Part shown: positions 47,803 to 63,830 of the stretch, in pieces
Layout: each line of letters opens with the position of its first letter
Position numbering within the stretch: position 1 is the stretch's first letter
NCBI RefSeq assembly: GCF_029023785.1
Contig: NZ_CP118955.1
Coordinates: 1,972,501-2,036,500 of the forward strand
Source: Enterococcus faecium
GTDB taxonomy: Bacteria; Bacillota; Bacilli; Lactobacillales; Enterococcaceae
Reading direction: 5' to 3'
Length of the DNA: 64,000 bases
Position numbers and translations under genes: made by a program
The notes under the pieces: model-generated
Told to the model about the DNA's origin: nothing
Seen by the model: the letters and a program-made list of their open reading frames with translations, nothing else
The model's database searches: none

Positions 47803-47901
47803 ATGCAGCGAATGCGAAAATAAAACCGCGAACATTACGTCCTTCGTCCAAGAGGCAACATCCCATCCTCTTAGCACTTAACGCTTTATTTTCTACTCTG
47901 T
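47803..47901 (-). promoter_or_regulatory. tetrahydrofolate (THF) riboswitch
   Basis: The complement contains the conserved THF aptamer words: GAGTAGA, GCGTTAAGTG, GGGATGTTGCC, GGACGAAGG, CGCGGTTTT and CGCATTCGCTG, in order. The helices CAG / CTG and AAAATAAA / TTTATTTT close it. It lies 36 nt upstream of the FolT start. A following hairpin (GCTGCAT ... GTAGCAGC) near the ribosome binding site suggests translational control. Confidence 0.92.
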
Positions 47902-47929
47902 ATTATTTTTGGGATCTTTTCCCACAGAA

Positions 47930-59581: not shown

Positions 59582-59629
59582 AACAATAGCAGAAAAAGCT
59601 CGTACGAACTTTTTCTGCTATTGTTTTAT
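59582..59629 (+). terminator. strong Rho-independent terminator
   Basis: AATAGCAGAAAAAG / CTTTTTCTGCTATT around CTCGTACGAA, followed by GTTTTATT. Confidence 0.85.
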
Positions 59630-59654
59630 TGGTTTGTCATAATTAGTGAGCTTT

Positions 59655-59800
59655 TCTTCAAAAGAAAAATTCCTAGAAACAAAAGTCATTAAGACTTTTT
59701 ATTAACAAGGCTAACCCTAACGCTCCTATCAGTTTCATTCATTTTTTATCCCTTGATAACCGAATGTCTGCCCATTTTTTCTACTACTTGGCTCTTTCTT
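59655..59800 (-). ncRNA. candidate TldR guide RNA (scaffold and guide)
   Basis: In TnpB and TldR systems the guide RNA overlaps and follows the 3' end of the protein gene on the same strand. Here the complement folds into a stem TTATCAAGG / CCTTGTTAA (about 59706-59759, one mismatch) with an inner CTGAT / GTTAG stem, then a hairpin AAAAGTC / GACTTTT (59683-59699). The guide would lie 3' of these stems (lower coordinates, roughly 59655-59682). Both ends and the guide boundary are guesses. Confidence 0.45.
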
Positions 59801-60756
59801 ACGGAATTGCTTTCTTCTGCTCCGTCGGTATTGATCAAAAGAAATTTTTTATTATACCATTGGGACTTATAACGCAATTTTGTTATTAATTTATGCCAGT
59901 CGTGAATAGAAAAATCAGCATGTGCCTCTTCTTTTGGAAAAGATTCTACAAATAAGTAGTCATATTGTTTGACCAATTTCCCAGATAATTGTTCAAGATA
60001 ATCTTCTCGCTGGTTCTTTTGTTTCAGATAAAGATCCATTACTTTTCTCTTTTGTTTCTGATAATTGCTTGCCTGATCTAACCTGATCTTTCTATGGTGA
60101 GCGGAGCGGACTTTCACATTCAATTTCCGCTGTGCATGTTGCAGCTTTTCTTCTGTCTGGTGAAATTTTGGTAAAGTTACTTCTAGAGGTCGAGATGTTT
60201 GGATCAATGTCTTCGGATGATAGGCGATCCCGATCCATTTAGCTAAAGATTCTTTTTTTACTGGCGAAACATCACAAAGTAGTGCGACATAAAATTCTTC
60301 ATTATATCGAGCAGAAATCGTAGCGGAGCGAATCGATCCTTCAACTGGCCGATGCTGATTTATCTTGATTAGTTCTTTTTGTTTTGGTAACTTTAAGTAG
60401 CCATTTTCCAGATAGATCGTACGGGTTTGGTTGTTGGTCGTATAAGATTGCCACATACTTTTTTTCGTTTTAAGCTTTGGGAAGCTGGCACGTCCCTTGA
60501 AATAATTGCGAAAAGCCCGATCCAAATTAAGCTGTGCATTTGCTAAAGCAAGACTGTCTACTTCTTTTAAGAATGGGTATTCTTTTTTTAATGTAGCGGG
60601 TGTGAGCGAAAAATTGGCTATTCCTGTTTGTTGCCAACTTTTCTGCCGCTTTTTCAGCAAATGGTTATAGGTAAATCGAGCACATCCAAAAGTACGAATC
60701 AATTGCTGTTTTTGTTCTTCTGTCGGATACATACGGAATTTAAAAGCTTTTAGCAT
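59746..60756 (-). CDS. tldR: TldR: TnpB-like nuclease-dead, RNA-guided repressor (oppF-linked)
   Basis: This 336 aa protein is TnpB-like from its first residues (LKAFKFRMYPTEEQKQQLIRTFGCARFTYN, SFPKLKTKKS) to RuvC-II (LFVESF, Glu at 271 kept). At the RuvC-I site, where active TnpB has GIDLG, it reads GIAYH (Ala at 178 for the catalytic Asp). After KFLLIN the zinc-finger cysteines and the last catalytic Asp (DRD) are absent and the protein is about 40 residues short. It should bind a guide RNA and DNA without cutting. GGAGG overlaps the oppF stop 7 nt before the ATG, so it is co-translated with oppF. No TnpA or transposon ends are near. Known oppF-linked TldRs of enterococci repress promoters. 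Confidence 0.88.
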   Translation of the reverse strand: MLKAFKFRMYPTEEQKQQLIRTFGCARFTYNHLLKKRQKSWQQTGIANFSLTPATLKKEYPFLKEVDSLALANAQLNLDRAFRNYFKGRASFPKLKTKKSMWQSYTTNNQTRTIYLENGYLKLPKQKELIKINQHRPVEGSIRSATISARYNEEFYVALLCDVSPVKKESLAKWIGIAYHPKTLIQTSRPLEVTLPKFHQTEEKLQHAQRKLNVKVRSAHHRKIRLDQASNYQKQKRKVMDLYLKQKNQREDYLEQLSGKLVKQYDYLFVESFPKEEAHADFSIHDWHKLITKLRYKSQWYNKKFLLINTDGAEESNSVRKSQVVEKMGRHSVIKG

Positions 60757-60767
60757 CTATGTCCCTC

Positions 60768-61721
60768 CTAGTTAGCAACCAGAAGAGATTCCTTTTGTCG
60801 TTTTAGTTTTTTTGCGTAATATGGGACTTCCTGCTCAGTTGCATAGACAAAATGTTCTGGTGCGATTTCACGAAGTTGACGTACTTGTCCGTCATCTGGT
60901 TCAGGTTGATATTTGATTCTTCTGCGTTTTCTCTCATGGTCTGGATCTGGTAGAGGAATAGCAGATAACAAACTTTCTGTATAAGGATGAACACCGTGAT
61001 TATAGATTTCATCACTTGTTCCCATCTCTAATAACAAGCCGTTATGCATTACACCGATTCGGTCACTAATATGTTTAACCATCGACAAATCATGTGCAAT
61101 AAATAGATAGGTCAATTGATGTTCTTTTTGGAGATCTTGCAACAAATTGACCACTTGGGCTTGGATCGACACATCTAGTGCAGAAATTGGTTCATCACAA
61201 ATGATAAAACGCGGTTTTACTGCCAATGCTCGTGCAATACCAATACGCTGGCGTTGCCCACCTGAAAATTCATGAGGATAACGAGTACCGTGGCTTGGAT
61301 TCAATCCAACAGTTCTCAATAGATCATCGACTTTTTTTGCACGCTCTTCAGATGATTTAGCTAGTCCATTAACATCAATTCCTTCGGCAATGATATCTCT
61401 GACTTTCATACGAGGATTCAACGAAGCGTATGGATCTTGAAAGATCATCTGAACATCATGCCGGAATTTCGTCAAACCTTTTTTATCTTTGATCTTCGTT
61501 ATATCTTGACCGTCGAATAATATCTCACCATCAGTAGGTTCATTCAAGCGAATGATCGTACGGCCAGTAGTGGATTTTCCGCTTCCAGATTCTCCAACTA
61601 AACCGAATGTTTCTCCTTCATAAATGTGAAAGCTGATGTCATTTACAGCATGTACTTCATTCTTTTTTCCTACATTGAAATACTGTTTCAATCCTTTAAC
61701 TTCAAGTAGTTTATTTGGCAT
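60768..61721 (-). CDS. oppF: oligopeptide ABC transporter ATP-binding protein OppF
   Basis: This 317 aa ATPase has Walker A GESGSGKST, signature FSGGQRQRI, Walker B FIICDEPISALD and the peptide-transporter C-terminal extension. It powers oligopeptide uptake with OppD. It overlaps oppD by 11 nt; GGAGG lies 8 nt before the ATG at 61721. Its stop codon forms part of the tldR ribosome binding site. Confidence 0.96.
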   Translation of the reverse strand: MPNKLLEVKGLKQYFNVGKKNEVHAVNDISFHIYEGETFGLVGESGSGKSTTGRTIIRLNEPTDGEILFDGQDITKIKDKKGLTKFRHDVQMIFQDPYASLNPRMKVRDIIAEGIDVNGLAKSSEERAKKVDDLLRTVGLNPSHGTRYPHEFSGGQRQRIGIARALAVKPRFIICDEPISALDVSIQAQVVNLLQDLQKEHQLTYLFIAHDLSMVKHISDRIGVMHNGLLLEMGTSDEIYNHGVHPYTESLLSAIPLPDPDHERKRRRIKYQPEPDDGQVRQLREIAPEHFVYATEQEVPYYAKKLKRQKESLLVAN

Positions 61722-62781
61722 CAGCAATTCCTCCTTGACCGTAAGTATGTTTTTGTTTCTCTTTAAAGATAGCCCAGCGACGTTGGATTTCTTCTGGCGG
61801 TGTCACTTTGGGTGCCTGCGGAGCAAGTAGCCAAGTTGCTGCCTTGTGTGTTTTTGATAGTTCAAAAAATGGTGGTTCTTGTTCTGCATCGATTTTCATC
61901 GCGAATTCATTTCTTGGATAGAATGCGTCTCCTTTTGGCGGGTTCAATAAATCCGGTGGAGAACCAGGAATAGCATACAATCGATCGTTCGCACTATCTA
62001 ATGTCGGCATTGAACCAAGCAGTCCCCAAGTATAGGGATGTTGCGGGTTGTAGAAAATTTCTTCCGATGTTCCAACTTCAACGATTCTTCCTCCATACAT
62101 GACAGCGACACGATCAGCGACATTCGCTACTACACCAAGGTCATGAGTGATAAAGATAATTGATGTATCGATTTTTGTCTGAATTTCTTTCAGCAGCTCC
62201 AAAATCTGTGCTTGAATAGTCACATCAAGCGCTGTTGTAGGTTCATCAGCAATCAGGATTTCCGGATAACATACCAGTGCAATCGCGATCACGATCCGTT
62301 GACGCTGACCTCCTGAGAACTGATGCGGATAACTGTTGATACGTTTCTCAGCTTCGGGTATTCCAACTAATTTAAGCAATTCTAATGCAGCTTTTTGTCC
62401 CTCTTTTTTTGAAACTTTATTATGCTTTCTAAGGGACTCAGCGACTTGCTTCCCAATGGGCATCGTCGGATCTAAAGAGGTCATTGGATCTTGGAAAATC
62501 ATCGCTATTTCTTTACCACGGATTTTTTGCATCTCTCTTTCTGATTTTCCAACGATATCGTTACCTTTAAAGAGGATTTGACCAGCATCTATATTGGCGT
62601 TGCTTGACAGCAAGCGCATGATGCTTCTGGTCGTCACTGATTTTCCACTTCCAGATTCCCCAACGATCGCCAATGTTTCTCCTTTATTCAAATGAAAATT
62701 GACACCGCGAATCGCTCGTACCTTTCCAGCATACGTATCAAAAGAGATTTCTAAGTCTTTCACTTCTAAAATTTTCGTCAT
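61711..62781 (-). CDS. oppD: oligopeptide ABC transporter ATP-binding protein OppD
   Basis: This 356 aa ATPase has Walker A GESGSGKSV, signature FSGGQRQRI, Walker B ILIADEPTTALD and the OppD C-terminal segment (IPGSPPDLLNPPKGDAFYPR). An ATG at 62781, 5 nt after the oppC stop, is used as the start. Confidence 0.96.
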   Translation of the reverse strand: MTKILEVKDLEISFDTYAGKVRAIRGVNFHLNKGETLAIVGESGSGKSVTTRSIMRLLSSNANIDAGQILFKGNDIVGKSEREMQKIRGKEIAMIFQDPMTSLDPTMPIGKQVAESLRKHNKVSKKEGQKAALELLKLVGIPEAEKRINSYPHQFSGGQRQRIVIAIALVCYPEILIADEPTTALDVTIQAQILELLKEIQTKIDTSIIFITHDLGVVANVADRVAVMYGGRIVEVGTSEEIFYNPQHPYTWGLLGSMPTLDSANDRLYAIPGSPPDLLNPPKGDAFYPRNEFAMKIDAEQEPPFFELSKTHKAATWLLAPQAPKVTPPEEIQRRWAIFKEKQKHTYGQGGIADAK

Positions 62782-62786
62782 CGTCT

Positions 62787-63830
62787 TCACTCTTTCATTT
62801 TAGGATCAAAGGCATCACGCAATCCATCAGCAAGTAAGTTAAAGCCAATCATGATAACCGATAAAGTTACTGCCGGAATCCATAATAGATAAGGCAGATA
62901 CAGGAATGTCTTGTACCCTTCGCTCAACATCGTTCCTAATGAAGCTGACGGAGGCGTAAGACCTAAACCGATAAAGCTTAAAAAGGCTTCGAAGAAAATA
63001 GCAGATGGAATACTAAACATCATTTGAATAATAATGACACTAGAGATATTCGGCAAAATATGTTTGAATGCAATTTTCATTCTTGATTCACCTAATGTCA
63101 ATCCAGCTAAAACATATTCTTGATCTTTTAATTTCATTGTTTGTGCACGAACGATACGTGCCATTGGTATCCAGTTTGTGATGGCCATAGCAGCCACGAT
63201 TGAAAAAATTCCTGGTTCAAAAACGACCAACATCAAAATCATGACAACGAGGTTTGGAATTCCTGATAAGATTTCCAAAAAACGTTGCATCACGTTATCG
63301 ACACGTCCGCCTAACAAACCAGAAACCAACCCGTAAGCTACACCAATCGTTACATCTAGTAATGCAGCAATAAATGCGATCAGCAACGAGATTCTCGTTC
63401 CCATAAATAAGCGGCTTAATACATCACGTCCCAAACCGTCTGTTCCTAAAAAGAAATTTACGTTTGAAGGGACGTTTGCTTGAGCATATTTATCAACAAG
63501 TTCACCACCAACCATTGCTTTTCCATTCAATCCATCGATATTGATTCCCGGAATACGAGGAGGCAAATTGATATAAGCCACGTTTTGGGCAGTTGGATCA
63601 TGAGGAGAAACAAAGATTGTGATCACAGAGATCAAAATGATGACCAATAGTAAAACCATTGAAATAACGGCAGCTTTGTTTTTCTTTAAACGGCGCCATG
63701 AATCTTGGATAAAATTCAAAGAAGGTGCAGTAATCTGTTCACGTTCTTCTTCGGTATTTTTTTGTAATGGAAGAAATTCATCCGCAGGGATATCTGCAAC
63801 TGTTTCATAACGCTTTGGTATCATTTCCAT
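62787..63830 (-). CDS. oppC: oligopeptide ABC transporter permease OppC
   Basis: This 347 aa permease has an N-terminal cytoplasmic arm (about 1-50) and six membrane helices. The inner-membrane EAA loop is GLTLGESRMKIAFKHILPNI and the GTDGLGRDVLSRL motif is typical of OppC/DppC. GAGG lies 4 nt before the first ATG (63830) and 10 nt before the next (63824). The first ATG follows the oppB stop directly. Confidence 0.95.
   Translation of the reverse strand: MEMIPKRYETVADIPADEFLPLQKNTEEEREQITAPSLNFIQDSWRRLKKNKAAVISMVLLLVIILISVITIFVSPHDPTAQNVAYINLPPRIPGINIDGLNGKAMVGGELVDKYAQANVPSNVNFFLGTDGLGRDVLSRLFMGTRISLLIAFIAALLDVTIGVAYGLVSGLLGGRVDNVMQRFLEILSGIPNLVVMILMLVVFEPGIFSIVAAMAITNWIPMARIVRAQTMKLKDQEYVLAGLTLGESRMKIAFKHILPNISSVIIIQMMFSIPSAIFFEAFLSFIGLGLTPPSASLGTMLSEGYKTFLYLPYLLWIPAVTLSVIMIGFNLLADGLRDAFDPKMKE

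Follow-up and report, generated by a model that had tools for sequence, protein, structure and literature searches.

What does a TnpB-family protein do at the end of an oligopeptide transporter operon? The question is raised by tldR, a gene in the window analysed here – a 64,000-nt stretch of Enterococcus faecium DNA at G000:C1:1972501-2036500 – and the answer probably lies in a short guide-like element directly behind the gene.

A nuclease-dead TnpB homologue behind oppF

The tldR gene (59746..60756, minus strand; from the open reading frame list and profile and sequence comparison) encodes, by ORF analysis, a TnpB homologue of 336 aa with an ATG start codon, and begins 11 nt past oppF. This gene for an ABC transporter ATPase (60768..61727) lies immediately 5′ of tldR and is in turn preceded, likewise on the minus strand, by oppD, encoding another ABC transporter ATPase (61711..62790), and the permease gene oppC (62787..63830), all three assigned from the ORF list and a domain search. 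With oppB and oppA located beyond oppC, slightly outside the window, tldR is the final gene of an opp operon headed by oppA, and is stably linked to a non-transposon gene, oppF, directly upstream.

TldR is matched by the Pfam family HTH_OrfB_IS605 (E 3.4e-19) and, by sequence, by solved TnpB structures (8bf8, E 1.5e-27), while Pfam OrfB_IS605 stays under its cut-off (25.9 vs 30.5 bits). The original prediction had described a TnpB-family protein with an intact frame, Ala in place of the RuvC-I Asp at residue 178, neither zinc-finger cysteines nor the final Asp, and a ribosome binding site that uses the oppF stop codon, and had proposed an alignment of the three RuvC acids. The alignment agrees: RuvC-I reads WIGIAYHP, so its Asp is replaced by Ala178; the RuvC-II Glu is present as E271; and the C terminus precedes both the zinc-finger cysteines and the RuvC-III Asp, which leaves E271 alone of the D, E and D of an active nuclease. 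The Shine–Dalgarno sequence AGGAGGG (60763..60769, minus strand; read from the sequence) sits 6 nt 5′ of the ATG and overlaps the oppF stop codon TAG (60768-60770). The overall reading of the protein, a nuclease-dead TnpB homologue coupled to opp, is therefore supported, and the name ‘endonuclease’ that databases give to such proteins is misleading. The RuvC-I Asp is missing from 17 of 17 close orthologues and from 56 of 56 family loci; the D-E-D set is kept in 29 of 29 TnpBs compared.

The frame is also intact beyond the window: orthologues occur in 13 of the 15 genomes of the genus (63-100% identity), none with internal stops, and the E. lactis orthologue is 93% identical. dN/dS is 0.016-0.15 in 10 of 11 pairs, the remaining pair not being computable and three pairs having a dS above 1, near saturation. 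The gene, its place after oppF and the guide element described below all persist across several genera. In one family locus, L364, tldR is broken, yet the site and the guide are retained – perhaps a recent break or an assembly error.

A guide-RNA-like element 3′ of tldR

The DNA 3′ of tldR is conserved in 13 Enterococcus and four Tetragenococcus loci, where a scaffold ending in TCAC is followed by TAATTAT and a conserved tail; in the window, a terminator-like hairpin comes next. The putative guide-RNA scaffold (59646..59737, minus strand), conserved in these 17 loci, is predicted to form 15 pairs, and at 6 of these both partners have changed in one sequence or more, which amounts to covariation. 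It is followed by the candidate guide region TAATTATGACAAACCAA (59629..59645, minus strand), whose boundary with the scaffold was set by active relatives (from E. cecorum and others): the right end common to these copies extends to ...AGTAGTTCAC, beyond which their flanks differ. Only the first 6-7 letters of the guide region (59639-59645) form the part that matches targets. The hairpin (59582..59625, minus strand), with 20 pairs followed by a T run, comes from a terminator scan that gave two terminator-like sites in the region scanned, against 1.2 expected. A guide element with a TnpB-type scaffold thus appears to lie beside the gene. Rfam gave no match at this element; elsewhere in the window, a THF riboswitch is found at 47804-47902 (minus strand).

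Nine active copies carry TTTAA at their left end, for which reason this motif is taken as the presumed TAM. Guide letters 8-15 (roughly GAnnAACC) are conserved in the main lineage, across genera, yet match neither of the two target sites described below, before oppA and dtpT; the conserved stretch from letter 8 onward (59629-59638 in the window, columns 107-116 of alignment A1) is perhaps an RNA-processing signal or a protein contact. The idea that these letters pair with the scaffold was dropped, as no covariation was seen by eye on alignment A1.

The element also modifies one argument of the original prediction, which held that a decaying transposase would show frameshifts and transposon ends and that none were seen. 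The absence of decay stands (no internal stops, low dN/dS), but a transposon-type remnant does exist, namely the guide-RNA element at 59629-59737; in a comparison of IS605-type transposon ends with the tldR locus that covered this element only, it resembles a right end.

A guide match in a promoter-like stretch of its own operon

The string TTTAATAATTAT – TTTAA followed by the seven guide letters TAATTAT – occurs in four exact copies in the 2.67-Mb window genome, two of them at peptide transporters, and in 65 copies in 15 genomes of the genus. When all 65 sites were aligned with their flanks, only two proved widely shared, one before oppA and one before dtpT. The oppA site (G000:C1:2039504-2039515, slightly outside the window) is present in 13 of 13 tldR-bearing genomes of the genus, 80-82 nt from the oppA start codon, and fills the 17-nt spacer of a promoter-like stretch, TTGNNN-17-TAAA(C/A)T, which is our own reading of the hexamers and was not called by the promoter scan. 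Beside the putative TAM, the guide thus appears to match a conserved promoter throughout these genomes as well as, under a strict rule, in 38 of 42 loci of the wider family.

A search for the guide in opp promoters, suggested with the original prediction, was therefore positive. As to the predicted target, ‘its own opp operon or a paralogue’, the former is the better of the two options because it is this operon’s own oppA whose −35-like and −10-like hexamers flank the TAM and seven guide letters; the other site is unlinked and lies at a peptide symporter gene.

Longer and shorter matches were also considered and rejected as targets. In the window genome, no site has 10 or more guide letters behind an exact TTTAA (there are seven exact 10-mers, none so placed). 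Sites of TTTAA with only six letters number 37 in the 15 genomes; 20 of the 37, drawn from 10 genomes, were retrieved, and no set among these is shared by more than four genomes.

A second site upstream of dtpT

The second widely shared exact site lies upstream of dtpT, a peptide:H+ symporter gene (TIGR00924, oligopeptide:H+ symporter, 382.9 bits against a cut-off of 130.2), in 12 of 13 tldR-bearing genomes; the cluster has 13 rows, but the flanks of the stray row L154 do not align, hence the count of 12. In genome G014, the dtpT site has one mismatch, at guide position 6. The site lies on the opposite strand, 163-168 nt 5′ of the start codon, and a TATAAT is present nearby on the reverse strand. 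In Tetragenococcus halophilus, the dtpT site is absent from three of three genomes. A search restricted to linked genes would miss this second peptide transporter, and we found no print record of the site in the open-licence literature. The dtpT frame of the window genome itself (G000:C1:1424392-1425549) comprises 386 codons before its stop, compared with 488 in the relative G005; among relatives, intact copies exist.

Permuted seeds and relatives that lack tldR

When the seed letters are rearranged, none of the 34 alternative orders hits the 300-nt oppA or dtpT region in the 13 tldR-bearing genomes; among the matches listed (8 of 35 rows), at least one other order hits the dtpT region of G008, a genome that lacks tldR. 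Of the 12-mers common to at least 12 of the 13 genomes, those in the oppA region fall into two blocks, the TAM-seed block and one that we take to be a CodY-like box; the dtpT region has the same two kinds of block – its box being presumed likewise – and a third near the start codon.

Two relatives without tldR, G003 and G008, were available for comparison. In G003, the opp genes are present and oppF is followed by an unrelated ORF; the stretch before its oppA keeps the hexamers and the 17-nt spacing while the site is absent; a scaffold remnant was not found above chance in this genome (best E 2.6). In G008, there was no oppA match at E 1e-60. Both relatives lack the dtpT site and keep the presumed CodY-like box. 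As other genera carry tldR after oppF, loss of tldR in G003 is likelier than gain elsewhere.

Distribution across the Enterococcaceae

At E 1e-60 or better, TldR has matches in 71 of 105 Enterococcaceae genomes, active TnpBs included. Fifty-six of the 85 matches outside the genus were fetched, those left out being long-frame hits presumed active and five of a distant lineage; 42 loci were testable and 14 set aside (13 because no oppA of at least 60% identity lay in the stretch, one because no scaffold end was recognised). With the boundary set automatically by a strict rule, the opp-linked loci match by at least six letters in 38 of 42 cases, by at least seven in 26 and by eight in nine, counts that are not independent, because four Tetragenococcus records are also among the 17 guide loci and many of the genomes are related to each other. 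For permuted guides, 19 of 2758 trials gave a match, all 19 within the 1292 belonging to the 38 loci with the right boundary. In the four misses (L317, L325, L326 and L358), an earlier YCAC had been taken as the boundary; re-read, they match by 7, 7, 7 and 8 letters.

Sites on the same strand as in the window genome fall in a TTGNNN-17-TA spacer in 47 of 48 rows (13 from the genus, 35 from the family), the exception being L316, which begins at a contig end. The oppA match of T. halophilus is six letters long, and three second oppA genes have no site. Where oppA genes stand in tandem (L340, L351 and L352), each has its own promoter-like stretch, with TTTAATAATTA in the 17-nt spacer.

A distant TldR lineage of 354-372 aa, with 11 loci downstream of oppF (L354-L360, L365, L366, L368 and L369), has the RuvC-I Asp changed to Thr in ten and to Cys in one. 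Here the site that the guide matches before oppA is on the opposite strand, and the TTGNNN-17-TA pattern does not frame it. In a 92-row tree, the main TldRs (support 100), the distant TldRs (97) and the active TnpBs (86) each fall on one side of a branch, a topology compatible with either one or two origins of inactivation. The distant lineage is possibly a second taming at the same locus.

Solitary tldR genes also exist: in L342, L343, L344 and L347, tldR and its guide are flanked by a GNAT-like gene on one side and a convergent Nudix-like gene on the other (both named by eye), with no opp genes between. These flanking genes are neighbours of the opp locus in the window genome, and three of the solitary-tldR genomes (G044, G047 and G048) carry an opp-linked tldR elsewhere.

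Proposed mechanism and alternatives

Our preferred reading, which we consider likely, is that TldR, with its own guide on the TTTAA-TAATTAT site before oppA, represses its own opp-tldR operon, and that the same guide probably acts at dtpT. Lacking two of the three RuvC acids, TldR likely binds a guide RNA encoded directly 3′ of its gene; the complex is predicted to occupy the site between the −35-like and −10-like hexamers and would thereby exclude RNA polymerase from oppA. As tldR is the last gene of the oppA-headed operon, the operon would repress itself, in a negative feedback. What we infer is the TAM assignment, that the guide is transcribed, that TldR binds RNA and DNA, and that its effect is negative. 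With so short a match, TAM and 6-7 letters must supply the specificity; that six to eight matching letters could do so is credible, since guides as short as 6 nt sufficed for a flagellin-controlling TldR (PMC13418256).

Upstream of dtpT, the same guide would join two peptide-uptake routes in one RNA-guided regulon, although the mode of action is less clear and the effect less certain, as the site lies on the other strand, remote from the start codon, and does not clearly fall within a promoter core. On balance, we lean towards a two-operon regulon served by one guide with 6-7 working letters: an ABC oligopeptide importer under own-operon feedback and an unlinked proton-driven di/tripeptide symporter, both with presumed CodY-like boxes in their upstream regions. 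If so, the genus would have RNA guidance as an inherent part of its nutrient control, passed on vertically, and the opp arm would reach across the family.

Might TldR instead be a transposase in decay, deprived of its active site and placed behind oppF by chance? Its derivation from the TnpB family, its missing C-terminal part and the one truly broken family locus (L364) would fit such a history, which is nonetheless highly improbable given the low dN/dS, the persistence of gene, position and guide element in several genera, and a guide that matches the promoter of the linked operon. It is also unlikely that TTTAATAATTAT resembles the guide by coincidence and is in truth another regulator’s site or simply a promoter feature. 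The site consists solely of A and T and lies in AT-rich intergenic sequence, only six to eight guide letters match and TATAAT occurs near the dtpT site; against this, rearranged seeds give no hits, G003 keeps hexamers and spacing with the site gone, and two of a mere four exact copies in 2.67 Mb lie at peptide transporters.

Quite unlikely, too, is that TldR binds these sites but activates, or tunes the access of CodY or CcpA, rather than blocking RNA polymerase. The boxes in both regions, which we presume to be CodY-like, and the far upstream position of the dtpT site would suit this, but a protein bound at the oppA site, which fills the −35/−10 spacer, should exclude polymerase, and a studied relative represses (PMC13418256). 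Repression by guided TldR accounts best for the oppA site, and the locus points to a transposon-type nuclease that has become part of core nutrient uptake in enterococci and is shared by several genera.

Comparison with known systems

From ISDra2 TnpB (8h1j, 8exa and 8bf8), the window TldR differs in lacking the RuvC-I Asp, the zinc finger and the RuvC-III Asp. Active IS605-type TnpBs (E. cecorum and others; L048, L049 and L055-L058) resemble it, with 39-43% identity and a YCAC scaffold end, but keep D-E-D, have transposon ends and lie in unlike flanks. The second contig of the window genome encodes a TnpB with all three RuvC acids (G000:C2:4229-5179), 32% identical to the window TldR.

Wiegand et al. 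reportedly described TldRs in Nature in 2024, including an oppF-associated group in which enterococci carry, behind oppF, a nuclease-dead TnpB homologue and a guide element of its own. We take the window tldR to be a member of this group, as the nuclease-dead homologue, the oppF link and a guide element are all seen in the window; it would thus belong to an already known kind. On the opp-linked group, nothing was found in the open-licence literature. The candidate dtpT site, the loss of the site along with tldR and the apparent strand flip in the distant lineage come from the present analysis.

A further parallel is the FliC-linked TldR of Enterobacter prophages, which is a TnpB-derived, nuclease-dead protein that uses a guide RNA and a TAM to target a promoter region, a guide or seed of 6 nt being sufficient (PMC13418256). 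That TldR is prophage-borne and controls flagellin (PMC13418256), whereas the window TldR follows oppF, with a guide that matches sites before peptide-transport genes.
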